From assembly GCA_023954855.1 (NCBI GenBank), contig JAGSGY010000008.1:1-64000 (forward strand): 64,000 bases of DNA, in the 5' to 3' direction. Below the pieces are notes generated by a model. That model searched no databases, was not told the origin of the DNA, and saw nothing but the letters and a program-made list of their open reading frames with translations. Below are positions 17,366 through 45,902 of the stretch, in pieces (the first letter of the stretch is position 1; each line of letters begins with the position of its first letter). The stretch comes from Pseudomonadota bacterium. GTDB taxonomy: Bacteria > Myxococcota_A > UBA796 > GCA-2862545. Position numbers and translations under genes: made by a program.

Positions 17366-18880
17366 TCACTCGACATCAGATGCCTCCTCGGCCCACTGCT
17401 CGATGTGGAACTCTACACGACGGTTCAGCTGCCAAGCCGCCTCGCCATCCGCGGGATCAATCGGCTGTGATTCGCCAAAGCCCTCGGATCCGAGGCGGGT
17501 CTCGCTGACACCGCCCTCAATCAGATAGTCGCGCACTGCGGCCGCACGGTGCCTGGAGAGGTCGAGATTGAAGCCCTCTTCCCCTCTGGAGTCCGTGTGC
17601 CCCTCAATGCGGACGCGAACGATGTCGGAGCGTTCGGTGAGAATCGCCGCGACCTCGTCCAGCAAGCCGAAAGACTCGGCCTTGATGGTCGACTCGTTCG
17701 TATCGAAGAACACCTTCTCGGTAATCTCGATACGCTCCTGCGTGACCTTTACCCGGACCGCCTCGAGAGTGACCTCGACGACGGTGGCCTGTCCGGCCTC
17801 GACGACAAAGCCCTGGCCCGTTGTGCGGTAACCATCGGCGTCGACCACAAGCAGATGTTCGCCGGGCTCGAAGTCCTCGTTGGCGCGCCCAGAGCGCACC
17901 GTTCCTGAGCGTTCACCGACGCGCCAGTCGGCGTCGACAGGCTGTCCGTCGGTGTTGCGTACTTTCAGCTTCAGGCTTCCGAGACGCGCGACCGGCTCCT
18001 CGACGATGGGCTCAGGCATTAGGTCTTCGTCGCGCCTTGGCTCGTAGCCAATGCCGATGAGGGTGCGCATCGTGGACGCGCCAGCCCCGCTTGTCAGTCC
18101 GGTGCCGACGCCGCCACGGAGCACCAGGTTGTCACCGAGGCGGTACCAGCCGCCCACCATGCCCTCGAAGGGCGCACCGACGGGGTCCGCGAGCGGCGTG
18201 CGGTACGAGGACTTGCCGTTGACCTCGACCGAGAAGCCGGCGTCGGGTGAGACCCGGTAGCCAACGCCCGCCGAAAAGTGGAGCGCGTCCTTCAGCGTGA
18301 GGTTGCTCGCCTCGATGGAGGCGCCGCCGCCCGTACCAATGTTGGCTGCGAGCAGCACGTCGCGGAAGCGGTGATCGAGAATGGCCTCGACCTCCCAAGA
18401 CAAGTTGCGGCTACCGAGCGGAACGGAGACGGTGTTTGTGGGCAGCCCAACACGCGTCGCGAAGGCGATGCCGAGCGGGAACTTCCGCGGGTCGAGCACG
18501 ACGCCCTTCAGGTCGATGGCGATATCGCCGAGCCCACCACCGCCAATATCGAGGTCGCTCGTCGCGAGCCCATACACGGGCAGGTGGAGCCCCGCGCGGA
18601 TGGGGCCAAAGGTCGCGCCCCCCATCAACTCGAGGGCGACCACATCCCGCACGATACGAGTATGCGTTCCATCGTCGCCGACCGCACCGAGCGGATTGTG
18701 GAATACGTCGATCAACGCACGGCCGGTGAACGTCTTCGACGCCCCGAGGCCGGCGTCGCGTGTCCATAAGGTGCGCTCAGAGTCCACCGGCGGCCGGTAC
18801 AGCTGCGCATCCAGCTCCGGCAAGTCATCGGCAGTCGGGGCCTGCCCGAAGGCAGCCCCTAGGGCGAGCACGAAGAGCAT
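17366..18880 (-). CDS. OmpA-family protein lacking TSP3, paralogue of the downstream gene
   Basis: A 504-residue outer-membrane protein. The signal peptide is LFVLALGAAFGQA. The N-terminal barrel-like region shares many phrases with its neighbour at 15176..17332 (PVYGLATSD, GLGDIAIDLKGVVLDP, GLPTNTVSVPLG, NLVLRGGVGTG). It keeps one PEGA-like repeat (about 295-375) and the C-terminal OmpA peptidoglycan-binding domain (385-500; VFFDTNESTI, IEGHTDSRGEEG, RVEFHIEQW), but has no TSP3 block. It arose by duplication of its neighbour or of a common ancestor. Its start overlaps the stop of the giant repeat protein as TGATG, so translation is coupled. Confidence 0.9.
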   Translation of the reverse strand: MLFVLALGAAFGQAPTADDLPELDAQLYRPPVDSERTLWTRDAGLGASKTFTGRALIDVFHNPLGAVGDDGTHTRIVRDVVALELMGGATFGPIRAGLHLPVYGLATSDLDIGGGGLGDIAIDLKGVVLDPRKFPLGIAFATRVGLPTNTVSVPLGSRNLSWEVEAILDHRFRDVLLAANIGTGGGASIEASNLTLKDALHFSAGVGYRVSPDAGFSVEVNGKSSYRTPLADPVGAPFEGMVGGWYRLGDNLVLRGGVGTGLTSGAGASTMRTLIGIGYEPRRDEDLMPEPIVEEPVARLGSLKLKVRNTDGQPVDADWRVGERSGTVRSGRANEDFEPGEHLLVVDADGYRTTGQGFVVEAGQATVVEVTLEAVRVKVTQERIEITEKVFFDTNESTIKAESFGLLDEVAAILTERSDIVRVRIEGHTDSRGEEGFNLDLSRHRAAAVRDYLIEGGVSETRLGSEGFGESQPIDPADGEAAWQLNRRVEFHIEQWAEEASDVE

Positions 18881-21800
18881 CAGGCGCTCCGGCGACGACG
18901 GAGCGCGAGTAGTCCAACCAGACCGAGCCAGCCAAAGCTACCGACCGGTGCGGTGGAGTCACAGCCACAAGAGTGCCCCACGAAGAGCGGCGGGTGGTAG
19001 ACGTCGTCGATCGGGTCGAGCGGGTCTGCACCGTTGTCGACTTCTTCGCCGTCGGGAATTCCGCCGCCGTCGGTGTCTTCGTCAAGCGGGTCAGTGCCGT
19101 GCTCGAGAACTTCCTCGCCGTCGGTCAGGCCGTCGTCGTCGGTGTCGTCGTCGAGCGGGTCCGTGCCCTCATCGACGACTTCCTCGCCATCGGTGAGACC
19201 GTCGTCGTCCGTGTCGTCATCGAGCGGGTCAGTGCCCTCTTCAAGGACCTCTTCGCCGTCGGTCAGACCGTCGTCGTCGGTGTCGGGGTCGTTCGGATCG
19301 GTGCCTCGCTTGCCCTCTTCCCAGTCGGTCAGGCCATCGTTATCGGTGTCGAGAAGGTCATCGGACGGCGTGTTGATGGGCTCGGTGCCGTCATCGAGCA
19401 CCTCTTCGCCATCGCTGCGCCCACCATCGTCGGTGTCCTCGTCGAGCGGGTCGGTGCCGTAGGTGAGCACTTCCTCGCCGTCGGTGAGGCGGTCGTCATC
19501 GCTGTCGGCATCTGCGGGATCCGTGCCCAGGTCGAGCTCGGAGTTCACGCAGTCGTCGGCAGGCTCAATGACCGTGTCGCCGTCGTTGTCGACGCGGAAG
19601 TCGTCACAGAGGCCGTCGTCGTCGGTATCGGGATCCGTCGGGTCCGACTCGTCGGTATCGAGGACACCATCGCCGTTGAAGTCCTCTTCGGCATCCGTGA
19701 GCCCGTCGTCGTCGGTGTCGACGTCGTTCGGGTCGGTGCCAATCGTGACTTCTCCGCCGACACATGCGTCGGCAGGTTCGATGCCGTCAGCCTCGCTGTC
19801 AGCGCGAACGTCGTCGCACAGTCCGTCGCCGTCACTGTCGGGATCGTTGGGATCCGTCTCGTCACCGGAAGCGTCGGTGTCGTCGAGGCCAAAGTACTCC
19901 TCGCGGTCGCTGAGACCGTCGTCATCGCTGTCGCCGTCGTCGGGATCCGTGTTGGAGGTGTTGGTCTCGAAGAAGTCGGTGAGGCCGTCACCATCGGTGT
20001 CGAGCAGGTCGTCGAGCGGCGTGTTGACGGGCTCGGTGCCGTCGATGAGCACCTCTTCGCCATCACTCCGTCCACCGCCATCGGTGTCGGGGTCGAGTGG
20101 GTTGGTGCCCGCCACCACTTCGGAGCCACCACAGGCGTCCGCCGGGTCGATACCGTCGGACTCGCTGTCGACACGGGTGTCGTCGCAAAGGCCATCGCCA
20201 TCGGTGTCGGGGTCGAGCGGGTTGGTGCCGTTCGCGACCTCCTCACCGTCGGTGAGACCATCGTCGTCGGAGTCGTCGTCACTTCCGTTCGGGTCCGTGC
20301 CGTTGCAAGGGTCCGTCGGGTCAATCACGCCATCGCCGTCGTTGTCGACACGCGGGCCGTCGCAGAGTCCATCGTCGTCGGTATCGGGATCCGCAGGGTC
20401 GGTACCGTCGGCCACTTCCTGTCCGTCGGGCAGGGAGTCATCGTCGGAGTCGGTGTCGAGCGGGTCGGTGCCGAGGTCGACCTCGGACTCCGTGCAGGCG
20501 TCTGCCGGCAGGATGCCATCGGACTCGTTGTCTGCGCGGGTGCCGTCGCAGACGCCGTCATCGTCGGAGTCGGGGTCGGTCGGGTCAGTGCCGTTCGCGA
20601 TCTCGGTACCGTCGTCCACGCCGTCGTCGTCGCTGTCGGTGTCGGTCGGGTCGGGGTCGACGCCATCACACGGGTCGGTCGGGTCGATGCCGTCGGCCGG
20701 AACCTCGTTATCGGTCCGCGGACCGTCACACACACCATCGTCGTCGGTGTCCGGGTCGTTCGGCTCCGTACCATCAGCGACTTCCTGCCCATCGAGGAGC
20801 GAGTCGTCGTCGGTGTCCGCGTCGGTCGGGTCGGTGCCCAGGTCGATCTCGGAGTTGGTACACGTGTCGGCGGGCAAGATGCCATCGGACTCGTTGTCGG
20901 CACGGGTGCCATCGCAGATCCCGTCGTCGTCGGTGTCTGGGTCCGTCGGGTCGGTTCCGTTCGCAATCTCGGTACCGTCGTCCACGCCGTCATCGTCGGT
21001 GTCGGTGTCGGTCGGGTCGGGGTCGACGCCGTCACAAGGGTCGGTCGGGTCGATGCCGTCCGCCGGAATCTCGTTGTCGGTACGCGGTCCGTCACAGACG
21101 CCGTCGCCGTCGGTGTCGGGGTCGATCGGGCTGGTGCCACCCGTCGTCTCCGTGCCATCGGGCAGCGAGTCGTCGTCCGAGTCAGGGTCGAGCGGGTCGG
21201 TACCCTCGTCAATCTCGGAGCCGGTGCACGCATCGACGGGGTCGACGCCATCGGTCTCGTTGTCGGTGCGGGTGCCGTCACAGAGCCCATCGCCGTCGCT
21301 ATCGGGGTCGAGCGGGTCGGTGCCGTTCGCGATCTCGGTGGCGTCATCGATACCGTCGTCGTCGCCGTCTGCATCGGACGGGTCAGGGTCGGTGATCGTG
21401 CCGTCACAGGGGTCGGCGGGGTCGACGCCATTCGGCGGGGTCTCGTTGTCGACGCGGGGCCCGTCGCACAGACCATCATCGTCGGTGTCGGGGTCGAGCG
21501 GGTCGGTGGTGCCGTTCCACTCATCGCCGTCGTTCAGGCTGTCGTCATCGCTGTCGGGGTCGTTGGGATCCGTGAACGACGACGACGTCTCGAAGAAGTC
21601 CGAGAGGCCATCGCCGTCGGTGTCGAGGAGGTCATCGAGCGGCGTGTTGATCGGCTCGGTGCCGTCCTGCAGCACTTCTTGGCCGTCGGTGCGGCCGCCA
21701 CCATCGGTGTCGGGGTTCTGGGGGTCGGTGCCCTCATCGACCTCGGAGCCGTCACAGGCATCCGCGGGAGTGATGCCATCACCATCGTTGTCAAAGCGCG

Positions 21801-24800
21801 TGTCGTCGCAGAGCAGGTCGCCATCAGTGTCTGGATTCGAAGGGCTCGTCTCGCCCGCATCGAGGACGCCGTCGGCGTTGATGTCTTCGGCGAGGTCGCT
21901 CAGGCCGTCGTCATCGCTGTCGCTATCGTTCGGGTCGGTGCCGGTGGTGCCCTCGTCAGAGATGCAGCTGTCCACGGGCAGAATGCCGTCGGACTCGCTG
22001 TCGGCACGGGGGCCGTCACAGATTCCGTCGTCATCGGAGTCCGGGTCCTCGGGGTCCGTACCGCCGGTGACTTCCTCACCATCGGTCAGGCCGTCATCAT
22101 CGGTGTCGGTATCCGTCGAGTCGGGGTCGGTACCGTCGCACGGGTCGTCGGGGTTGATGACGCCGTCACCGTCATTGTCGAAGCGGGGTCCGTCACAGGC
22201 GCCGTCGCCATCGGTGTCGGGGTCGGTCGGGTCGGTGACGCCGTTGGCTTCATCCAGGTCCGAGAGCGAGTCGTCATCGGTGTCGGAGTCGAGGGGGTCG
22301 GTGCCCTCGACCACTTCAGAGCCCGTGCAGGTGTCGGTCGGGTCAATGCCGTCGGTCTCACTGTCGGCCCGGGTTCCATCGCAGAGGCCATCGTCATCGG
22401 AGTCAGGATCGAGCGGATCGGTGCCCAGGGCGAGCTCCTCGGCATCGGTGAGGCCGTCATCGTCCGCGTCATCGTCGGTGGGGTCCGGGTCGACGACGGT
22501 ATCGTCGCAGGGGTCCGTCGGGTCGATGCCGTTGCTCTCGCTGTCGACGCGAGGTCCGTCACAGATCAGGTCGTCGTCCGTGTCGGGATCGTTCGGATCC
22601 GTGGTGCCGGTGACCTCGTCGAGGTCGGTGAGCGAGTCGTCGTCGGTGTCGGTATCGAGGGGGTTGGTACCCTCGAGAACCTCGGAGCCGATGCAGGTAT
22701 CGGTCGGGTCGATGACGCCATCGCCCTCACCGTCCACGCGCGTGCCGTCGCAGAGGCCGTCGCCGTCGGTGTCGGGATTGAGGGGGTTGGTGCCCGCCGC
22801 ACGCTCTTCAGCATCGGTGAGGCCGTCGTCGTCGGCGTCCGCATCGGTCGGGTCGGGGTCGACGACGGTTCCGTCACAGGGGTCGGTCGGGTTGACGCCA
22901 TCGGTCGGAACTTCGTTGTCGACGCGGGGACCGTCACACAAGAGGTCGTTGTCGGTGTCGGGGTCAGTCGGGTCGGTACCGCCAGCAAGCTCGGCAGAGT
23001 CAGAGAGCGAGTCGTCGTCGGTGTCGGCGTCGAGCGGGTCGGTGCCCTCGACGATCTCGGAGCCCGTGCATGCATCAAACGGCTCGAGAATGCCGTCGCC
23101 CTCATTGTCGGCGCGCGTTCCGTCACAGAGGCCATCGCCGTCGGTGTCGGGATCGCCCGGGTCGGTTCCGTCGATGAACTCCTGGCCGTCAGAGATGCCG
23201 TCGTCGTCGGAGTCGGTGTCAGTCGGGTCGGGGTCGACGATCGTGTCGCCACATGGGTCGGTGGGGTCGATGCCGTCGCCGTCGTTGTCGAAGCGGACGC
23301 CATCACAGATCAGGTCATCATCGGTGTCGGGGTCGGTCGGACTCGTCGGGCCGTTGGCCTCGGCGAAGTCGTCGAGCGAGTCGTCATCGGTGTCGCTGTC
23401 GGTCGGATCGGTGCCGAGTGCAAACTCCGAGCCGCTGCAGTCGTCGACGACATCGTCACCGTCGCCTTCGTTGTCGAGGCGAGTGCCGTCACAGAGGTTG
23501 TCGTCGTCGGTGTCGGGGTCGGTCGGGTCGGTCTCGCCGGGGTCGAGGAAGCCGTCTCCGTTGAGCTCTTCTTCGCCATCCTCGAGACCATCGTCGTCAG
23601 AGTCGATGTCATTGGGATCGGTGCCGGAGGCCACCTCGGATCCGACGCAGCTATCCGCGACGTCGAGGCCGTCGGTGGGCAGCTCGTTGTCGGTGCGGAA
23701 ACCGTCGCACAGGCCGTCGTCGTCCGTATCGGGGTCATTCGGATCGCTTTCACCGGCGTCTACGTTGACGTCCCCGTCGACGTTCTCAGCGCCATCCGAC
23801 AGACCGTCGTCGTCGCTGTCCGCATCGGCCGGGTCGGTCCCATTGGTGAGTTCACCACCGATACAGCTATCGGTCGGGTCGAGGTCATCACCGTCCGGTG
23901 GGACGTCCTTGTCACCTTCTTGGGTTGGAGTGAAGCCACCGGTCTGGCTGTCGACGCGAATGTCGTCGCACAGGCCGTCGTCGTCACTGTCGGGATCGTT
24001 GGGGTCCGTGCCAAGCTCGTCCCCCGTCCCCGGCAGAAGGTCGGCGCCGTAGACCTCGAGACCATCGTTGATGCCGTCGTCATCACTGTCGGGATCCTGC
24101 CAGTCGGTCCCCGTCACGTTGATCTCGTCCCGGTCGAGGATGCCGTCCCCGTCCCAGTCGCGCTCGCCACCGGCGACATCGTCCCAGAGGTCGCCGCAAG
24201 CGGCCCCGAGCACGTCCTTGGCCAAGGTGCTGCTGTTCGAGCTCGTGCCCATGACCATCGGGGTCAGGTTGAGGTCGGTCGAGTTGGTGACCGCGAGGAA
24301 GTCAGCGACCGGAACCTGCACTTCGAGGAAGCGGTCGGTGCAGCTGGCGTCACCATCCCAGAGGCCATCGCCGTCGCCATCGAGCTTGCAAGCCGCCTCG
24401 TTGCAGACGCTGGCCGGCGTGCCGTAGGAGGAGCAGGCGGGGACTACGCGGGCGTAGTCCGGAAAGCGCTCTGGACCGCCATTGTCGACATTGGCTGGGT
24501 AGCAGTACGGAATCGACTCTTCACCGTCGCTGCACCAGTCATTGGGCTCGGGGACATCGTTGCCGCGAAGCTCGACCTGCTTGCCGGTACCGTCGAGAAC
24601 GACCTGAAAGTCCCAGCTGCCGTCCGTGGTGTCGCCGTCGGTCTCGAGCAAGGTGTGGAAGCCGAACGAGGCCCACTTGTCCGGCCCGGTATCCGCGGGG
24701 TCCTCGGCCAGGCGGATCCGGAAGAACACGGTGGTCGCGTCGATACCCCAAAATCCGGCGGCCTCGCTCGGGTCTGCCGTGCCGCCAATACCCTCCCATT

Positions 24801-24978
24801 GCGGAGACGAGTCGATGGGGTCGGTGAGCCAGCTTCCACCCGGAGCGGGCAACGAGGCCCACTCGATGCCATCGCTGTCCGGCCAGGTGGCGGGGGCATC
24901 CGTCGAGGGGCCATCCACAGAGCAACTCTGCGCATGGGCGGGGCCAGACGTGAGAAGCATGGCGAGCAAAAAGGTCAT
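18880..24978 (-). CDS. giant MYXO-CTERM-anchored TSP3 repeat protein
   Basis: A 2032-residue surface protein. The ATG start gives signal peptide [15 protein letters not shown] with GGGAG five bases upstream. Residues about 20-260 form a Cys-containing beta-sandwich-like domain ([11 protein letters not shown]). The next 1700 residues are thrombospondin type-3-like repeats of Asp-rich calcium loops (DPDTDDDGL and variants). By hand I count 22 copies of a CD-x-x-R-x-D module, each followed within about 20 residues by a second Cys. The C-terminus has [11 protein letters not shown], a hydrophobic stretch and RRRR, the MYXO-CTERM sorting form expected to be cut and anchored at the surface. It is the first gene of the envelope operon. 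Acidic, repeat-driven codon bias differs from its neighbours. Confidence 0.92.
19030..24160 (-). repeat. TSP3-coding tandem repeat array
   Basis: About 5 kb of degenerate tandem DNA repeats that encode the Asp-rich loops of the giant surface protein. Unit edges follow protein modules, not identical DNA blocks. Units alternate between a CDGTR/CxGSE type and a CDGPR/DPCDGT type. The strongest local identity lies around 20350-21130, where consecutive units are nearly the same at the DNA level, pointing to recent duplication. Confidence 0.85.
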
Positions 24979-25035
24979 CGAAACTCCCGGGCCCACGTCA
25001 CGCAAGAATGGCGAGACGCAGGTGCAGCGCCCGTA

Positions 25036-40814: not shown

Positions 40815-42533
40815 ATGAAGAGCCTTCAGGTCCAGGACCTCGGTCGGGTGCAGGAGATTGCCCGCGTACTCGCGAAGAACGGGTTCGGTCACGCATTCAA
40901 CGTGATCGGCATCGCGAACTTGCCTGCTGGCGATCCCGAGATCGTTACGAAGCCCTATGCACGCCGGCTCCGACAGGCTCTGATCGACCTCGGCCCCACC
41001 TATGTGAAGCTCGGTCAGGTCCTCTCGGTGCGGCCTGACATCTTGCCCCCGGACGTGCTCACTGAGTTCCAGACGCTGCAGGATCAGGTGCCGCCGCTGT
41101 CGGGCAAGGAAGTCCGCAAGACCCTCGCACTCGAGCTCGGACGCCCCATCGACGAGGTGTTCTCGAGTGTCGATGACACACCCCTCGGCAGCGCGTCCAT
41201 CGCACAGGTTCACCGCGGCGTCCTTCTCGACGGAACCCAGGTCGCCGTCAAGCTCCAGCGACCCGGTATTCAGAAGAAGATTCAGTCCGACTTGGCCATT
41301 CTCTACAGCCTCGCTCGACTGGGTGAGGGCCGCGTCGAGATTCCGGGTTTCTACACGCCGGCGGCCATCGTCCAAGAATTCGACCACGCCATTATGCGCG
41401 AGCTCGACTTCCTCGAAGAGGCCAAGGCCACACAGCGCATGCGGCGCAACTTCGCCTCGAACCCCGACATCGTCATCCCAGAGGTCCTGGAGCGCTTCAC
41501 CACCCGCCGGTTGATGGTGATGGAGCTCATCGAGGGCGAGCCGCTCTCCGCGGCCATGAAGACGGCGCAGCCTTCTCTACAGCGGAGACTCGCCCACAAG
41601 CTCATGGAGGCTACGTACCAGCAGGTCTTCGAGTATGGCTACTTCCACGGAGACCCCCACCCCGGCAACATCCTCGTCACCCCAGACGAGCAGCTTGCAT
41701 TCCTCGACTTCGGTGTCGTGGGGCTGCTCACCGGCCATATGCAAGACACCATCATCTCGGCGTTCACAAGCCTGGTGTTTCGAGACGCAGAGACGCTGGC
41801 CATGACAGTCTACCGAGCCGGCGCGACGGCGGAACGCGTCGATCTTCGCGCCTTTCGAGACGACATGGAGTTCCTGATGGTCAAGTACCATGGGGTCTCT
41901 TTGGACCAGCTCTCGTCACGGGCGACCCTCGTCGACGTCTTTCAGCTCGCAAGCACCTACCGCATCAACCTTCCGAGCGAGTACGCCGTGCTGTCGCGAG
42001 CGGTGACCCTGGTCGAGGGTATCTGCCGCTCACTGCTCCCCGGCATCGACATCGTCGAAGAGGTCACGCCCTACGCGCAGCGCTTGGTCCGAAAGCGCTT
42101 CTCACCCGAGCGAGTCGCAAGCGATGCCGCGAAGCTCATCATCCAGGCCCAGGGCCACATGAAGGAGCTGCCCACGCAGCTCTCTCAGGTGCTGATGGAC
42201 CTCGAGGCCGGGAACGTCACCTTCGTGATGAAAGACCCCGAGTCCGCGCTCCTTCGCGAAGAGATTCGCATGGGGGCGATGCGCATTTCGCTGGGCATGC
42301 TTGCGGCCACCACGACGCTCGGCGCCATCCTGTTTCTCGCCGCGTGGTCCCCGGCTCCCTTCGGCATCCCACTGTTCGGGGTTTCAGGCTTCCTGATCCT
42401 CGGAATCGGCATCGGCCTCTTTGGCGCTCTCGGAGTGCACGTCCTCTTCGCTGGGCTTCTTTCTCCCGCCGCCTGGAAACGACGGATCTTCGGGTTTTTC
42501 CGGTTCTTCCGATGGCGGTCCAGAGAGGACTGA
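40815..42533 (+). CDS. ABC1/AarF/UbiB-family atypical kinase
   Basis: A 572-residue membrane protein of the UbiB family, whose members support ubiquinone synthesis or lipid handling and bind ATP. It carries the family's KxGQ motif (TYVKLGQVLSVRPDILP), the Ala-rich nucleotide loop region GSASIAQVHRG, ATP-binding Lys in VAVKLQRPG, ExD in ELDFLEEA, the HGDPHPGNILV catalytic loop and LDFGVVG. Two C-terminal helices (about 493-545) span the membrane. The length is typical. It is followed by the pseudokinase gene after 75 bp. Confidence 0.94.
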   Translation: MKSLQVQDLGRVQEIARVLAKNGFGHAFNVIGIANLPAGDPEIVTKPYARRLRQALIDLGPTYVKLGQVLSVRPDILPPDVLTEFQTLQDQVPPLSGKEVRKTLALELGRPIDEVFSSVDDTPLGSASIAQVHRGVLLDGTQVAVKLQRPGIQKKIQSDLAILYSLARLGEGRVEIPGFYTPAAIVQEFDHAIMRELDFLEEAKATQRMRRNFASNPDIVIPEVLERFTTRRLMVMELIEGEPLSAAMKTAQPSLQRRLAHKLMEATYQQVFEYGYFHGDPHPGNILVTPDEQLAFLDFGVVGLLTGHMQDTIISAFTSLVFRDAETLAMTVYRAGATAERVDLRAFRDDMEFLMVKYHGVSLDQLSSRATLVDVFQLASTYRINLPSEYAVLSRAVTLVEGICRSLLPGIDIVEEVTPYAQRLVRKRFSPERVASDAAKLIIQAQGHMKELPTQLSQVLMDLEAGNVTFVMKDPESALLREEIRMGAMRISLGMLAATTTLGAILFLAAWSPAPFGIPLFGVSGFLILGIGIGLFGALGVHVLFAGLLSPAAWKRRIFGFFRFFRWRSRED

Positions 42534-42608: not shown

Positions 42609-44210
42609 GTGACCAAGCAGTACGGACGCGGCGATGTGATCGCCTCTCGTTTCGAGGTGAGGGATCTGCTCGGGGAGAGCCCGCTGGGCGCGAGCTACCG
42701 GGTCACCGCCAATGGCACCGCTCAGCATCTGCTCGTGCTTCGCGCAGAGGTCGCTACCAAGGCTGGTGAAAAGGGCCTCGCCCGTGCGCTCAAGCGTGCC
42801 AAGGGTCTCTCTGACGGGAACATTCTCGCAGTCCAAGAGCTTGTCTCCCAAGACGGCATCGTCGCATTCGTCTGCGAGGACTTCGAAGGTCAGACCCTGC
42901 GTCAGTTCCTGCAGGAGAGCAAAGTCGAGGGCAAGCAGCTCGAGGCCAAGGCCGCCGCCCAGATCGTCGGCAAGGTCCTCGGCGGTCTCGAGGCCGCGCA
43001 CACGAAGAGCGCCTTCGCGCGTGCCCTGCGTCCCGAGTACGTCCTCGTGCATGCGCGTCGCACCGGCCCAGGCGGAAAGAACCTTGTCGCCACCATCAAG
43101 CTTCTCTACTTGGGCCTCTGGGATCTGGTCGACGCCAACGCCCTCAGCGAAGACGAGTTCGCTCGCGGCGAAGCCCAATACATGGCGCCCGAGCTGAAGG
43201 GATTCGAACCCCGCGCGACGCCACGCTGCGACGTCTATTCGGCGGGCGTGCTCTTCTACGAGCTGCTGACCGGCTCGCCTCCAGTCGGTACTTTCCAGAT
43301 GCCGACCACGATTCGGCCGGAGCTTCCGAAGCACGTCAACAACGTGGTCGAGCTCGCCATCGCCAATGCGCCCGAAGACCGCTACCAGAGCGCCCGGGAC
43401 ATGCGCGTTGACGTAGAGCGCACCTTCAAAGATGCCGCAATGCTCGAGGAGCGCGAGAAGAAGCCGCTGATCACCTGGATCGGCTGGGTCGCTGTCGCGA
43501 TGCTCGTAATCGTGGCGGGAGTGCTCGCCTACCTCGTGCGTCCCGACGCCGAGATGACCGCCCAGGCCCGAGACGCTGCCGTGAAGCAAGTGGTCCTCGA
43601 CGGCCGCCCCGAGGTCGACGCGGCCACCGCCGCCAAGCTCATCGCAGCCAACCCCAGCATGGTATACGTCCCGGGTGGCACCTACCTGCACGGCCGCCTC
43701 CACGCCGAAGAAGACGCGAGCATGAGTGAGCCTCTCGCCGATGTACGCGAGCTTCCCGCGTTCCTCATGGACGCGTACGAGTGGCCGAACAAGGCCGGCG
43801 AGCGCCCTGAGTACGGCATGACCTACGACGACGCCCGGGCGTCTTGCGAAGGCGCCGGAAAGCGCCTTTGCTCGGCAGAAGAGTGGGAAAAGGCCTGCAA
43901 AGGCCCACTGTCGAGCGTCTACAGCTACGGCGACTTCTTCGATGTCGACTTCTGCGGCGATGGCGTCGACAACCGCGGCTACCCATCGGGTGCGCGCAAG
44001 GACTGTCGTTCTGACTACGGCGCCTTCGATCTGTCCGGCAACTTCGCCGAGTGGACCGGTAGCGCGCCCAAGGGGAAGGACACGCGTCGCCTCGTAAAGG
44101 GTGGACAGCGTGGCAACGCCCGGCGCGGCACGCGCTGCGCCTTCAGCAACGACGAGAGCATCGCGCTCAAGGACAACGCGGTCAGCTTCCGCTGCTGCAA
44201 GTCTCCCTGA
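42609..44210 (+). CDS. pseudokinase fused to a formylglycine-generating-enzyme-type domain
   Basis: A 533-residue fusion. Residues 10-275 have a protein-kinase fold, but the VAIK Lys is replaced (LVLRA), the HRDLKPEN loop reads FARALRPEYV, and DFG reads LGL (168-170), so it should not transfer phosphate. The APE (YMAPEL) and the structural D208 are kept. A membrane helix lies at about 288-310. Residues 350-533 are an FGE/SUMF1-type domain (MVYVPGGTYLHG, CEGAGKRLCSAEEWEKACKG, NFAEWTGS). The last 90 residues are Cys-rich. The GTG has GGGAG seven bases upstream. The FGE domain may be exposed outside. Confidence 0.9.
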   Translation: MTKQYGRGDVIASRFEVRDLLGESPLGASYRVTANGTAQHLLVLRAEVATKAGEKGLARALKRAKGLSDGNILAVQELVSQDGIVAFVCEDFEGQTLRQFLQESKVEGKQLEAKAAAQIVGKVLGGLEAAHTKSAFARALRPEYVLVHARRTGPGGKNLVATIKLLYLGLWDLVDANALSEDEFARGEAQYMAPELKGFEPRATPRCDVYSAGVLFYELLTGSPPVGTFQMPTTIRPELPKHVNNVVELAIANAPEDRYQSARDMRVDVERTFKDAAMLEEREKKPLITWIGWVAVAMLVIVAGVLAYLVRPDAEMTAQARDAAVKQVVLDGRPEVDAATAAKLIAANPSMVYVPGGTYLHGRLHAEEDASMSEPLADVRELPAFLMDAYEWPNKAGERPEYGMTYDDARASCEGAGKRLCSAEEWEKACKGPLSSVYSYGDFFDVDFCGDGVDNRGYPSGARKDCRSDYGAFDLSGNFAEWTGSAPKGKDTRRLVKGGQRGNARRGTRCAFSNDESIALKDNAVSFRCCKSP

Positions 44211-44245: not shown

Positions 44246-44539
44246 GTGGGAGAGGCTGCGGCAGGCTCACTGTACAAGGCCGCCGCCGGAGCGCTCGGCA
44301 TCGCGGTCTTGTCGTGGTGCTGCAACCCCTGCTTCGTGTTCAGCTTCGCTGCCATCGGCGCGAGCTCCAACGTCTTCAGGCTCGCCAACCAACTCGAGAT
44401 CAGCCTAGACCAGGACTACCCGCGCCAAGCAGGCAACCTGTCCAAGGCCGTGGCCCTGATCGCAGGCCTCATCGCCGTGCTCGGCATTCTGATGAACGTA
44501 CTCGGGAGCGTGCTGCGCATTGGACAGGCGCTGAACTAG
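44246..44539 (+). CDS. small membrane protein of unknown function
   Basis: A 97-residue protein with two hydrophobic helices (ALGIAVLSWCCNPCFVFSFAAIG and VALIAGLIAVLGILMNVLG) separated by a short charged loop. A CCNPC Cys cluster is at the first helix. The start is GTG with no clear ribosome-binding site. It sits 35 bp after the pseudokinase-FGE gene and may be in its operon. Its stop shares CTAG with the convergent lipoprotein gene. Confidence 0.7.
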   Translation: MGEAAAGSLYKAAAGALGIAVLSWCCNPCFVFSFAAIGASSNVFRLANQLEISLDQDYPRQAGNLSKAVALIAGLIAVLGILMNVLGSVLRIGQALN

Positions 44540-45015
44540 CGGGCCGGGTCCGGAGGCGTCGCGAACAGCTGCGTCTCGGGATCGCTCGGGGTGTCTTGGT
44601 CGTCGTAGACCATGACAGTCCAGTACAGGTCGGTGTCTTCCGGCGGGTTGCCCGTCACGCCGACCTGCATGCGGAGGACGGCGGCCTGGGTCTCGCACTC
44701 AGCAGTACCCGCTTCGCCGGTGATCTCGAGGTACTCCCCCTCCATCGAGGCGGACACGTCCTCGTCTTCGTCGTACCAGACGCGCATCGTGTACCAGTGC
44801 AGATCGAAGTCGGCGTCGCTCACATTGGCGGTGAGACGAACGGAGTTGTAGGTCGCGTCTCCGCTGCCCTGCAATTCGTCTCCGAGCTCGATCGTGAGCA
44901 AGTCGATGACCGGAGGCGTATCGCCACAGCCATCGTTGGCCGGACCAGGTGCTTCGAGGTCATCGCCATTGCAAGCGACGAGGAGCAGGGAGAGAGTCAC
45001 TAGGGCACGCGTCAT
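44536..45015 (-). CDS. lipoprotein of unknown function
   Basis: A 159-residue lipoprotein. The ATG at 45015 has GGAGG seven bases upstream, and the lipobox LLVAC (C15) is followed by NGDD. The mature part is acidic with beta strands (SVRLTANVSDADFDLHWYTMRVW) and conserved-looking paired Cys (DGCGDTPP, AECETQ). It may be a small beta-sandwich. No family is recognised. It is divergent from the lipase gene. Confidence 0.8.
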   Translation of the reverse strand: MTRALVTLSLLLVACNGDDLEAPGPANDGCGDTPPVIDLLTIELGDELQGSGDATYNSVRLTANVSDADFDLHWYTMRVWYDEDEDVSASMEGEYLEITGEAGTAECETQAAVLRMQVGVTGNPPEDTDLYWTVMVYDDQDTPSDPETQLFATPPDPAR

Positions 45016-45113
45016 GCTGGGGCCTCCGCGGGAGCATGCTAACCCGGTTCCGACAGGTTGGAGTTGCCCGAGGCCACAAGCTAGGCCACAGTGCCCCCAG
45101 CCCTGGAGACTCC

Positions 45114-45902
45114 ATGCGCACACCCACTCCCTGGGGCATGTACCGAATCGCTCGCGACCAACTCGGCAGCATTCGCACCGTGTATCTCGGCTCCGATCGC
45201 GTGGAGCGCCGTGGCGATTTTCACGCCGAGGGCGAGATCGTGCTTCTGCTGCATGGCTTCTTTCAGACGCGCAACATCTGGGAAGTCATGGAGGACCGGC
45301 TTCGGCACGATGGCTATGCGGTCATGTCGTTCAACCTCGGCGGACTGCTCTACCGCTTCAACACGCATCCTGTCGATCACCTCGCGAAGCTCATCGCGGA
45401 CAAGGTGGATGGGCTCGCACGCCGCCACGGATTCGAGCGCATCCACATCATCGGGCACAGCAAGGGTGGCCTCGTCGCACGCCGCTACATTCAAGCGTAT
45501 GGCGGCGACCAGCGAGTCAAGAGCCTCACCACACTCGGCACGCCCCACCATGGCACCTGGACCGCGGCGCTCGGGGCGATCGGACTCGGCGCAGTCGGCT
45601 GGGGAACCAGCGTCCGCGAGCTGTTGCCACGGAGCAAGACCATCAAGCGCCTGACGAGCGAGCGCTTCCCCGACCACATCCCGCTGACGAGCATCTACTC
45701 GCGCGCCGATCTGGTCTGCCCGTGGTGGCACGCCGCCCTGCACCCCTCGCCCGAGCAGAAGGGTATGCACACGATCGAGGTACCCGGCGTGGGCCACTCG
45801 GAGCTGACCTGGAATCCCGCGGTCTACCGTCAGGTCAAGATCGCACTCGATGATGCGAGCGCGCACTGGAACGCCCGCGCCAAGCTCGCAAAGGCCGTCT
45901 AG
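45114..45902 (+). CDS. lipase/esterase-like alpha/beta hydrolase
   Basis: A 262-residue protein. The nucleophile elbow GHSKGG (S116), oxyanion-side LLLHGF at 46-51 and a late GVGHSELTWNP with a catalytic-type His fit bacterial lipases of the LipA/triacylglycerol-lipase type. There is no N-terminal signal, so it is probably cytoplasmic or peripherally attached. The ATG at 45114 has GGAG six bases upstream. Earlier in-frame codons would add an Arg/Cys-rich tail. It converges with the AHSA1 gene, sharing CTAG. Confidence 0.88.
   Translation: MRTPTPWGMYRIARDQLGSIRTVYLGSDRVERRGDFHAEGEIVLLLHGFFQTRNIWEVMEDRLRHDGYAVMSFNLGGLLYRFNTHPVDHLAKLIADKVDGLARRHGFERIHIIGHSKGGLVARRYIQAYGGDQRVKSLTTLGTPHHGTWTAALGAIGLGAVGWGTSVRELLPRSKTIKRLTSERFPDHIPLTSIYSRADLVCPWWHAALHPSPEQKGMHTIEVPGVGHSELTWNPAVYRQVKIALDDASAHWNARAKLAKAV

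Follow-up and report, generated by a model that had tools for sequence, protein, structure and literature searches.

A class-wide predicted transmembrane pseudokinase with an FGE/SUMF1-type outer domain and a frequently adjacent ubiB gene

The locus described here raises the question of what a protein kinase fold stripped of its catalytic residues might do when it is joined, through a single membrane helix, to a domain of the formylglycine-generating enzyme (FGE)/SUMF1 type, and whether such a protein is a decaying relic or a maintained component of the cell.

The gene and its kinase fold

The gene lies in the window, i.e. the whole 64,000-nucleotide stretch of DNA that was analysed (Table 1). 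Its ORF starts with GTG, with a GGAG box 5' of the start, and promoter and terminator scans at the locus gave no signal above shuffled sequences. The N-terminal part of the product matches Pfam Pkinase (PF00069; residues 17–231, E 5e-16, bit score 59.3 for a cut-off of 31.7), and the C-terminal part matches FGE-sulfatase (PF03781; residues 396–530, E 1e-17, bit score 65 for a cut-off of 23.3). Together with hydropathy, these matches bear out the first-pass annotation, made from the DNA letters, which had placed a kinase-type domain, a membrane helix and an FGE/SUMF1-type domain in one protein. Exactly one membrane helix is found in 69 of the 70 aligned pseudokinase–FGE sequences. Lysines flank the helix of the window protein on the kinase side, and the kinase part is probably cytoplasmic, with the FGE-type part outside.

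Table 1. Features of the pseudokinase–FGE locus and its neighbours in the window
Feature	Coordinates	Strand	Basis
UbiB/ABC1-family gene, immediate upstream neighbour at a distance of 75 bp	40815..42533	+	Pfam, locus comparison
Pseudokinase–FGE gene (kinase fold, single membrane helix, FGE/SUMF1-type domain), 533 aa	42609..44210	+	ORF and Pfam
Pseudokinase domain, aa 10–278, cytoplasmic (predicted)	42636..43442	+	Pfam Pkinase; AlphaFold2 model versus PknA/PknB
β3 Lys site, Leu42	42732..42734	+	Alignment with ten canonical kinases
HRD Asp site, Ala139	43023..43025	+	Alignment with canonical kinases
DFG Asp site, Tyr167	43107..43109	+	Alignment with canonical kinases
Former activation segment, aa 176–200, EDEFxRGEAQYxAPEL	43134..43208	+	Conservation in family f1
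Membrane helix, aa 291–309	43479..43535	+	Hydropathy
FGE/SUMF1-type domain, aa 345–533, outside (predicted)	43641..44207	+	Pfam, SUMF1 alignment, Cys pattern
Small hydrophobic ORF, 97 aa, between the pseudokinase–FGE gene and the hydrolase in the window's genome	44246..44539	+	
α/β-hydrolase, GHSKGG nucleophile elbow, downstream	44949..45902	+	Locus comparison

The kinase part was aligned with ten canonical kinases, of which six come from genomes of f1, the family to which the window belongs; all ten controls carry K, D, D and N at the catalytic positions. By this alignment five nucleotide-binding or catalytic residues are all missing from the window protein: the β3 Lys is replaced by Leu42, the αC Glu by Ala60, the HRD Asp by Ala139, the catalytic-loop Asn by Tyr144 and the DFG Asp by Tyr167, so that A-R-A stands at the HRD site and Y-L-G at the DFG site. 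The glycine-rich loop reads G-E-S-P-L-G, and there is no Asp in the catalytic-loop stretch (residues 134–150). Inspection by eye of the f1 alignment blocks revealed neither a WNK-style shifted Lys nor a nearby Asp that could compensate. The APE Glu195 and the helix-F Asp208 are retained. The fold itself is also kept: in an AlphaFold2 model computed from five sequences (the window protein and four relatives), the N-lobe reaches a pLDDT of about 90 and much of the C-lobe is modelled at usable confidence, and the nearest solved structures found by Foldseek are the bacterial kinases Stk1, PknA and PknB (E about 1e-12). The VIA comparison with PknA gave a Z-score of 24.7 and an rmsd of 2.9 over 252 aligned residues, supporting the protein kinase-like fold, although the VIA list held active kinases only and is uninformative on pseudokinase membership. 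The β3 Lys, HRD Asp and DFG Asp that mark an active Ser/Thr kinase are thus absent while the fold, the APE motif and the helix-F Asp persist, as had been read from the DNA at the outset, and judged by its residues the window protein is a pseudokinase, defined as a kinase fold without one or more of these three catalytic residues.

Distribution, catalytic loss and selection across the class

A counterpart of the pseudokinase–FGE gene is present in 70 of the 71 genomes of the class, including all 32 with at least 90% completeness and at most 5% contamination; the sole genome without a match is 80% complete. A search of 284 genomes of the phylum, those of the class among them, yielded outside the class nothing but matches to the kinase part alone or the FGE part alone at E ≤ 1e-25; it scored five candidates per genome and could have missed weak ones. 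An origin outside the class was accordingly rejected at that threshold and depth, no full-length relative having been recovered. The closest full kinase–FGE relative found outside the class is a fusion in an 857-aa frame (L116, genome G157), which keeps K, HGD and DFG, carries Thr in place of the αC Glu and has no ubiB beside it.

Catalytic residues were compared in 70 sequences from 69 genomes, distributed over nine families (f1–f9). The complete triad of Lys, HRD Asp and DFG Asp is found in only six sequences, three from f5 and three from f9, and a single one of these also has the αC Glu; since the triad is intact, these six at least may be active kinases. It is incomplete in the remaining 64, and all three residues are missing in 22, namely the window protein and 21 relatives. 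The 20 aligned f1 sequences, which represent 14 genera and form one clade with 100% SH-aLRT support, lack all three residues without exception, as well as the αC Glu and, in 19 of 20, the catalytic-loop Asn, the HRD Asp position being occupied by A or G. In f2, H stands at the HRD Asp position in 21 of 22 sequences and the DFG Asp is lost, with the Lys kept, whereas f4 has N at the HRD Asp position and keeps the DFG Asp and, in 9 of 10 sequences, the Lys. Retention of the HRD Asp in 7 of 70 sequences implies at least five presence changes on the tree. Considered with the six full triads, this indicates that catalysis was lost in steps, by routes specific to each family. By contrast, the APE Glu is kept in 69 and the helix-F Asp in 68 of the 70 sequences. 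Within f9, the three most degraded copies (L080, L081 and L082) lie away from ubiB; in genome G069, a copy with an intact triad (L083) adjoins ubiB and the strongly degraded L080 lies away from it. L081 and L082 resemble L080, and the three are probably a paralogous branch within the family.

It could be argued that catalysis has been retained or repurposed, with an unusual use of ATP as in WNK, SelO or SidJ. Families f2, f4, f5 and f9 mostly retain the Lys and the catalytic-loop Asn, and some members the HRD and DFG Asp, making weak activity plausible there; nevertheless, the near-complete loss in f1, together with the glycine-rich loop and the Asp-free catalytic loop of the window protein, renders this explanation very unlikely for the protein under study.

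The window's genome offers a comparison of its own. It encodes about 19 FGE-type domains, at least nine of which are fused to a kinase with a preserved H(R/G)D-(L/V)-K-P-x-N motif, and the six fusions aligned over both stretches also have the Lys and DWG. These intact-motif fusions, like those in the literature (PMC1262709), agree with the earlier statement that active kinase–FGE fusions are known. The pseudokinase–FGE gene thus appears to be an exception within its own genome, shared with two other degraded-looking loci. One FGE-containing protein (L131) has a kinase-like part with HGDVHPAN and no DFG, and another (L130) a kinase-like part without any HRD; both are possible further pseudokinase–FGE proteins.

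Substitution rates were estimated by the Nei–Gojobori method for pairs within families. For the kinase domain, dN/dS is 0.012–0.24 in four f1 pairs, in every one of them below the value for the looser linker and helix (0.14–0.50), and 0.02–0.15 in f2 and f5 pairs; for the FGE domain it is 0.025–0.27. The pseudokinase–FGE gene is therefore under strong purifying selection, and partial losses of catalytic residues have become fixed under such selection in families other than f1. Within f1, conservation of the kinase part peaks in the former activation segment (residues 176–200), at a mean pairwise identity of 0.72; in the window protein this segment has no large deletion. Residues invariant in f1 include E181, E183, R186, G187, Y191 and E195 in this segment, R138, R141 and P142 in the former catalytic loop, and also G153 and P154. 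Such constraint on vacated loops is what would be expected of a maintained binding surface and not of a relic. The triads kept in six sequences might be taken to indicate a relic kinase decaying by neutral drift, its loss isolated in the window's genome, but the loss is common to the whole of f1, neither the reading frame nor the architecture is disrupted, and dN/dS lies far below 1 in both domains, so that neutral decay is extremely improbable. Family-wide loss and dN/dS also exclude an isolated decay or a sequencing artefact. Orthologues with intact motifs, which the first-pass annotation had regarded as a sign of isolated decay, do exist in f5 and f9, but the decay is not isolated, being fixed throughout f1.

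The outer domain

The FGE part of the AlphaFold2 model is unreliable, and the assignment of the outer domain therefore rests on sequence profiles. A profile built from 43 outer-domain sequences has SUMF2/pFGE as its best PDB match, followed by SUMF1/FGE (E about 1e-20), and this match, along with the Pfam score and the structural cysteines, upholds the original assignment to a putative FGE/SUMF1-type fold. Eight cysteines are near-invariant. Four of them, Cys413, Cys430, Cys510 and Cys529, occupy structural disulphide positions and are present in 69–70 of the 70 sequences, as are the four further cysteines, 421, 449, 466 and 530. The first four align on residues 218, 235, 346 and 365 of human FGE (numbering checked back from the C-terminus), in which the structural disulphides are 218–365 and 235–346. 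The eight conserved cysteines would fit an oxidising extracytoplasmic compartment.

Equivalents of human FGE Cys336 and Cys341, the copper-binding catalytic pair of aerobic FGE, are absent in all 70 sequences, the interval that separates the KGG and TRC motifs being free of cysteine. Because the pair falls in a cysteine-free stretch throughout, the outer domain is, on the evidence of the alignment, not a formylglycine-generating enzyme. The genome of the window does encode sulfatase-family proteins. In the other FGE-type domains sampled the catalytic Cys pair is mostly missing too, so its absence seems to be usual for the superfamily in these bacteria and not a second decay. The outer domain is also under purifying selection, which argues against its being the target of a diversity-generating retroelement (a hypervariable C-type-lectin-fold repeat beside a reverse transcriptase).

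These results bear directly on the model of the first-pass annotation, in which the pseudokinase served as an internal switch for an external enzyme of the FGE type and the surviving copper-binding cysteines were to be checked: both are missing from every one of the 70 sequences, which retain, like human SUMF2/pFGE, structural cysteines only. SUMF1-type folds include non-FGE enzymes, namely EgtB, CalU17 and OvsA, which also match the profile. However, the domain, at about 190 aa, is shorter than true FGE and lacks a segment between its two conserved halves; moreover, EgtB and OvsA possess a second iron-binding domain, which the pseudokinase–FGE protein does not have. With the FGE catalytic cysteines absent as well, an outside enzyme is improbable.

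Gene neighbourhood, possible role and known systems

Of the 67 loci with enough flanking sequence, 50 have a co-directional ubiB gene immediately upstream, mostly at a distance of 80–310 bp, and this adjacency occurs in families f1, f2, f4, f5, f6, f8 and f9. On the downstream side, an α/β-hydrolase gene follows directly in 30 of the 43 loci that could be tested, co-directional in f1 and in the opposite orientation elsewhere; the true start of the hydrolase in the window is probably later than 44949. The further-upstream neighbours tested in the window (thymidine kinase and two others) recur in the same genus only. The UbiB of the window has two C-terminal membrane helices and intact kinase-like motifs, and the linked copies examined carry ASIAQVH, VA(V/I/L)K, H(G/A)DPHPGN and DFG; motif loss is thus limited to the neighbouring kinase fold. 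Linked UbiB proteins share 44–85% identity in f1 to f6 and f8 and 38–41% in f9, many genomes of the class carry a second, more distant ubiB, and the linked one looks like a class-specific copy. None of 17 ubiB regions outside the class has an adjacent kinase–FGE gene. Adjacent ubiB is missing in f3, f7, part of f2 and f4, and several f1 genomes. Since the pseudokinase–FGE gene is kept without adjacent ubiB in two f1 genomes (G004 and G016) and in f3, and no close ubiB copy at all was found in G004 and G023, UbiB is not an obligate partner everywhere, and gene order by itself is no proof of a pseudokinase–UbiB interaction.

Between the pseudokinase–FGE gene and the hydrolase, the minus strand also holds a small lipoprotein-like ORF (44536–45123) with no Pfam match, which is found near the locus in several f1 and f2 genomes at 30–39% identity. 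Elsewhere in the window, a 2041-aa ORF (18880–25005, minus strand) with DPDTDDDGL-type repeats and a MYXO-CTERM-like tail, which may point to the Myxococcota, partially matches the gliding motility lipoprotein CglD (294.8 bits, under the cut-off of 400). This repeat ORF accounts for the AT skew of -0.27 at 20–24 kb, and the long antisense frames there were rejected as its mirror artefacts.

Catalytic residues are gone both inside and outside, yet the protein is retained throughout the class, and it is therefore probably a sensor or scaffold and not an enzyme. With moderate confidence we propose a transmembrane receptor or scaffold that acts in a lipid- or quinone-related process. The outer SUMF1/C-type-lectin-like domain, probably braced by disulphides, would bind a ligand or partner beyond the inner membrane, and the single helix would convey its state inward, where the ATP-incompetent kinase fold may recruit or allosterically control a partner on the cytoplasmic side, docking it through the region around the former catalytic loop and activation segment. 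The best candidates for this partner would be the UbiB/ABC1 protein encoded directly upstream or an active Ser/Thr kinase of the genome. From the UbiB and hydrolase neighbourhood we infer membrane lipid or quinone homeostasis as the process, in which the hydrolase may also take part; the protein is perhaps tied to a UbiB/hydrolase module. Of the earlier suggestion of a cytoplasmic scaffold or switch acting on an outside enzyme or binding domain, the scaffold or switch is retained as the likeliest role, whereas the FGE enzyme is not, for want of the catalytic cysteines.

A sensor of the same design might instead signal through the active Ser/Thr kinases of the genome, as an MviN-like platform or an EssB-like hub, with the ubiB adjacency merely inherited. 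The abundance of canonical kinases in the genome, including the six or more kinase–FGE fusions with intact Lys, H(R/G)D and DWG, would favour this, as would the persistence of the gene without adjacent ubiB and the precedents of MviN, a PknB substrate that recruits FhaA, and of the EssB/YukC scaffold (PMC12599244). The order ubiB, pseudokinase–FGE gene, hydrolase is, however, kept across families f1 to f9 more than the other tested neighbours, and signalling through Ser/Thr kinases is possible but rather doubtful. Returning to the receptor or scaffold that docks UbiB, a stronger version can be put forward only tentatively, namely a module peculiar to the class, with a transmembrane double pseudoenzyme that senses the envelope and exerts allosteric control over the UbiB/ABC1 atypical kinase, with the hydrolase as third member. 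The locus would then preserve the steps from a plausible active kinase (K/HRD/DFx) to an ATP-incompetent pseudokinase, with the architecture fixed and the neighbourhood kept in most genomes.

Bacterial pseudokinases are mostly uncharacterised, and transmembrane ones are already known (PMC12599244). The interest of this family lies chiefly in its graded series of catalytic loss and its conserved ubiB linkage. At one mostly conserved locus, the natural series runs from an intact triad (f5, f9) through HRN (f4) and HRH without the DFG Asp (f2) to complete loss (f1), which allows a direct test of the point at which catalysis becomes dispensable to a kinase. The UbiB link, if true, would also suggest a way in which bacteria can regulate ABC1/UbiB proteins. 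No report of this pseudokinase–FGE family was found in the literature searched (subscription papers being outside its scope).

Seven bacterial pseudokinase families have been published, and going by their descriptions, six of them have defining features that the window protein, as far as its sequence tells, does not share. GLW pseudokinases have GLW in place of HRD (PMC12599244), where the window protein has A-R-A; CP1 has no membrane helix and a fused COG3899 domain, whereas here the helix is present and the Pfam scan found no COG3899. Unlike DLHK, which retains the HRD Asp and has no membrane helix, the window protein has Ala139 and a helix; unlike ActPs2, with its β3 Arg, HRN and activation-loop extension of about 250 aa, it has Leu42, A-R-A and no extension; and unlike DYD, in which the β3 Lys is changed to Arg and DFG to DYD, it has Leu42 and Y-L-G. 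As for ActPs1, an actinobacterial family of which about 60% lack helix G and which is often fused to PQQ, no PQQ domain of this type was found by Pfam in the window protein. ActPs3, to which M. tuberculosis MviN with its carbohydrate-binding domain belongs, resembles the window protein in being a membrane pseudokinase, with partner recruitment proposed here as well (PMC12599244). The MviN pseudokinase does not bind ATP (PMC12599244). ActPs3 is, however, actinobacterial and marked by an activation-loop deletion, which the window protein does not have, and its transmembrane layout is different. EssB/YukC, the membrane pseudokinase scaffold of type VII secretion, likewise combines a cytoplasmic pseudokinase degraded in all three motifs with one membrane helix and a scaffold role of the kind proposed here (PMC12599244), but it belongs to the firmicute system and has a different outer part and a degraded activation loop, whereas the activation segment of the window protein is full length and its gene has ubiB and hydrolase neighbours.

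Outside these families, SUMF2/pFGE, to which the outer-domain profile gave its best PDB match, is a soluble animal ER protein with neither kinase nor anchor; compared with it, the outer domain of the window protein is shorter and carries four additional conserved cysteines. SUMF2/pFGE is also an FGE-type domain without active-site Cys and is described as having no catalytic function (PMC7279497). Finally, fusions of kinases with FGE/DUF323 (NirV) domains, such as chlamydial kinases, share the combination of a Ser/Thr kinase fold and an FGE/SUMF1-type domain (PMC1262709). Compared with the fusions of its own genome, which keep Lys, HRD and DxG and place the FGE domain about 500–720 residues in, the pseudokinase–FGE protein is shorter, mostly without catalytic residues and present class-wide.
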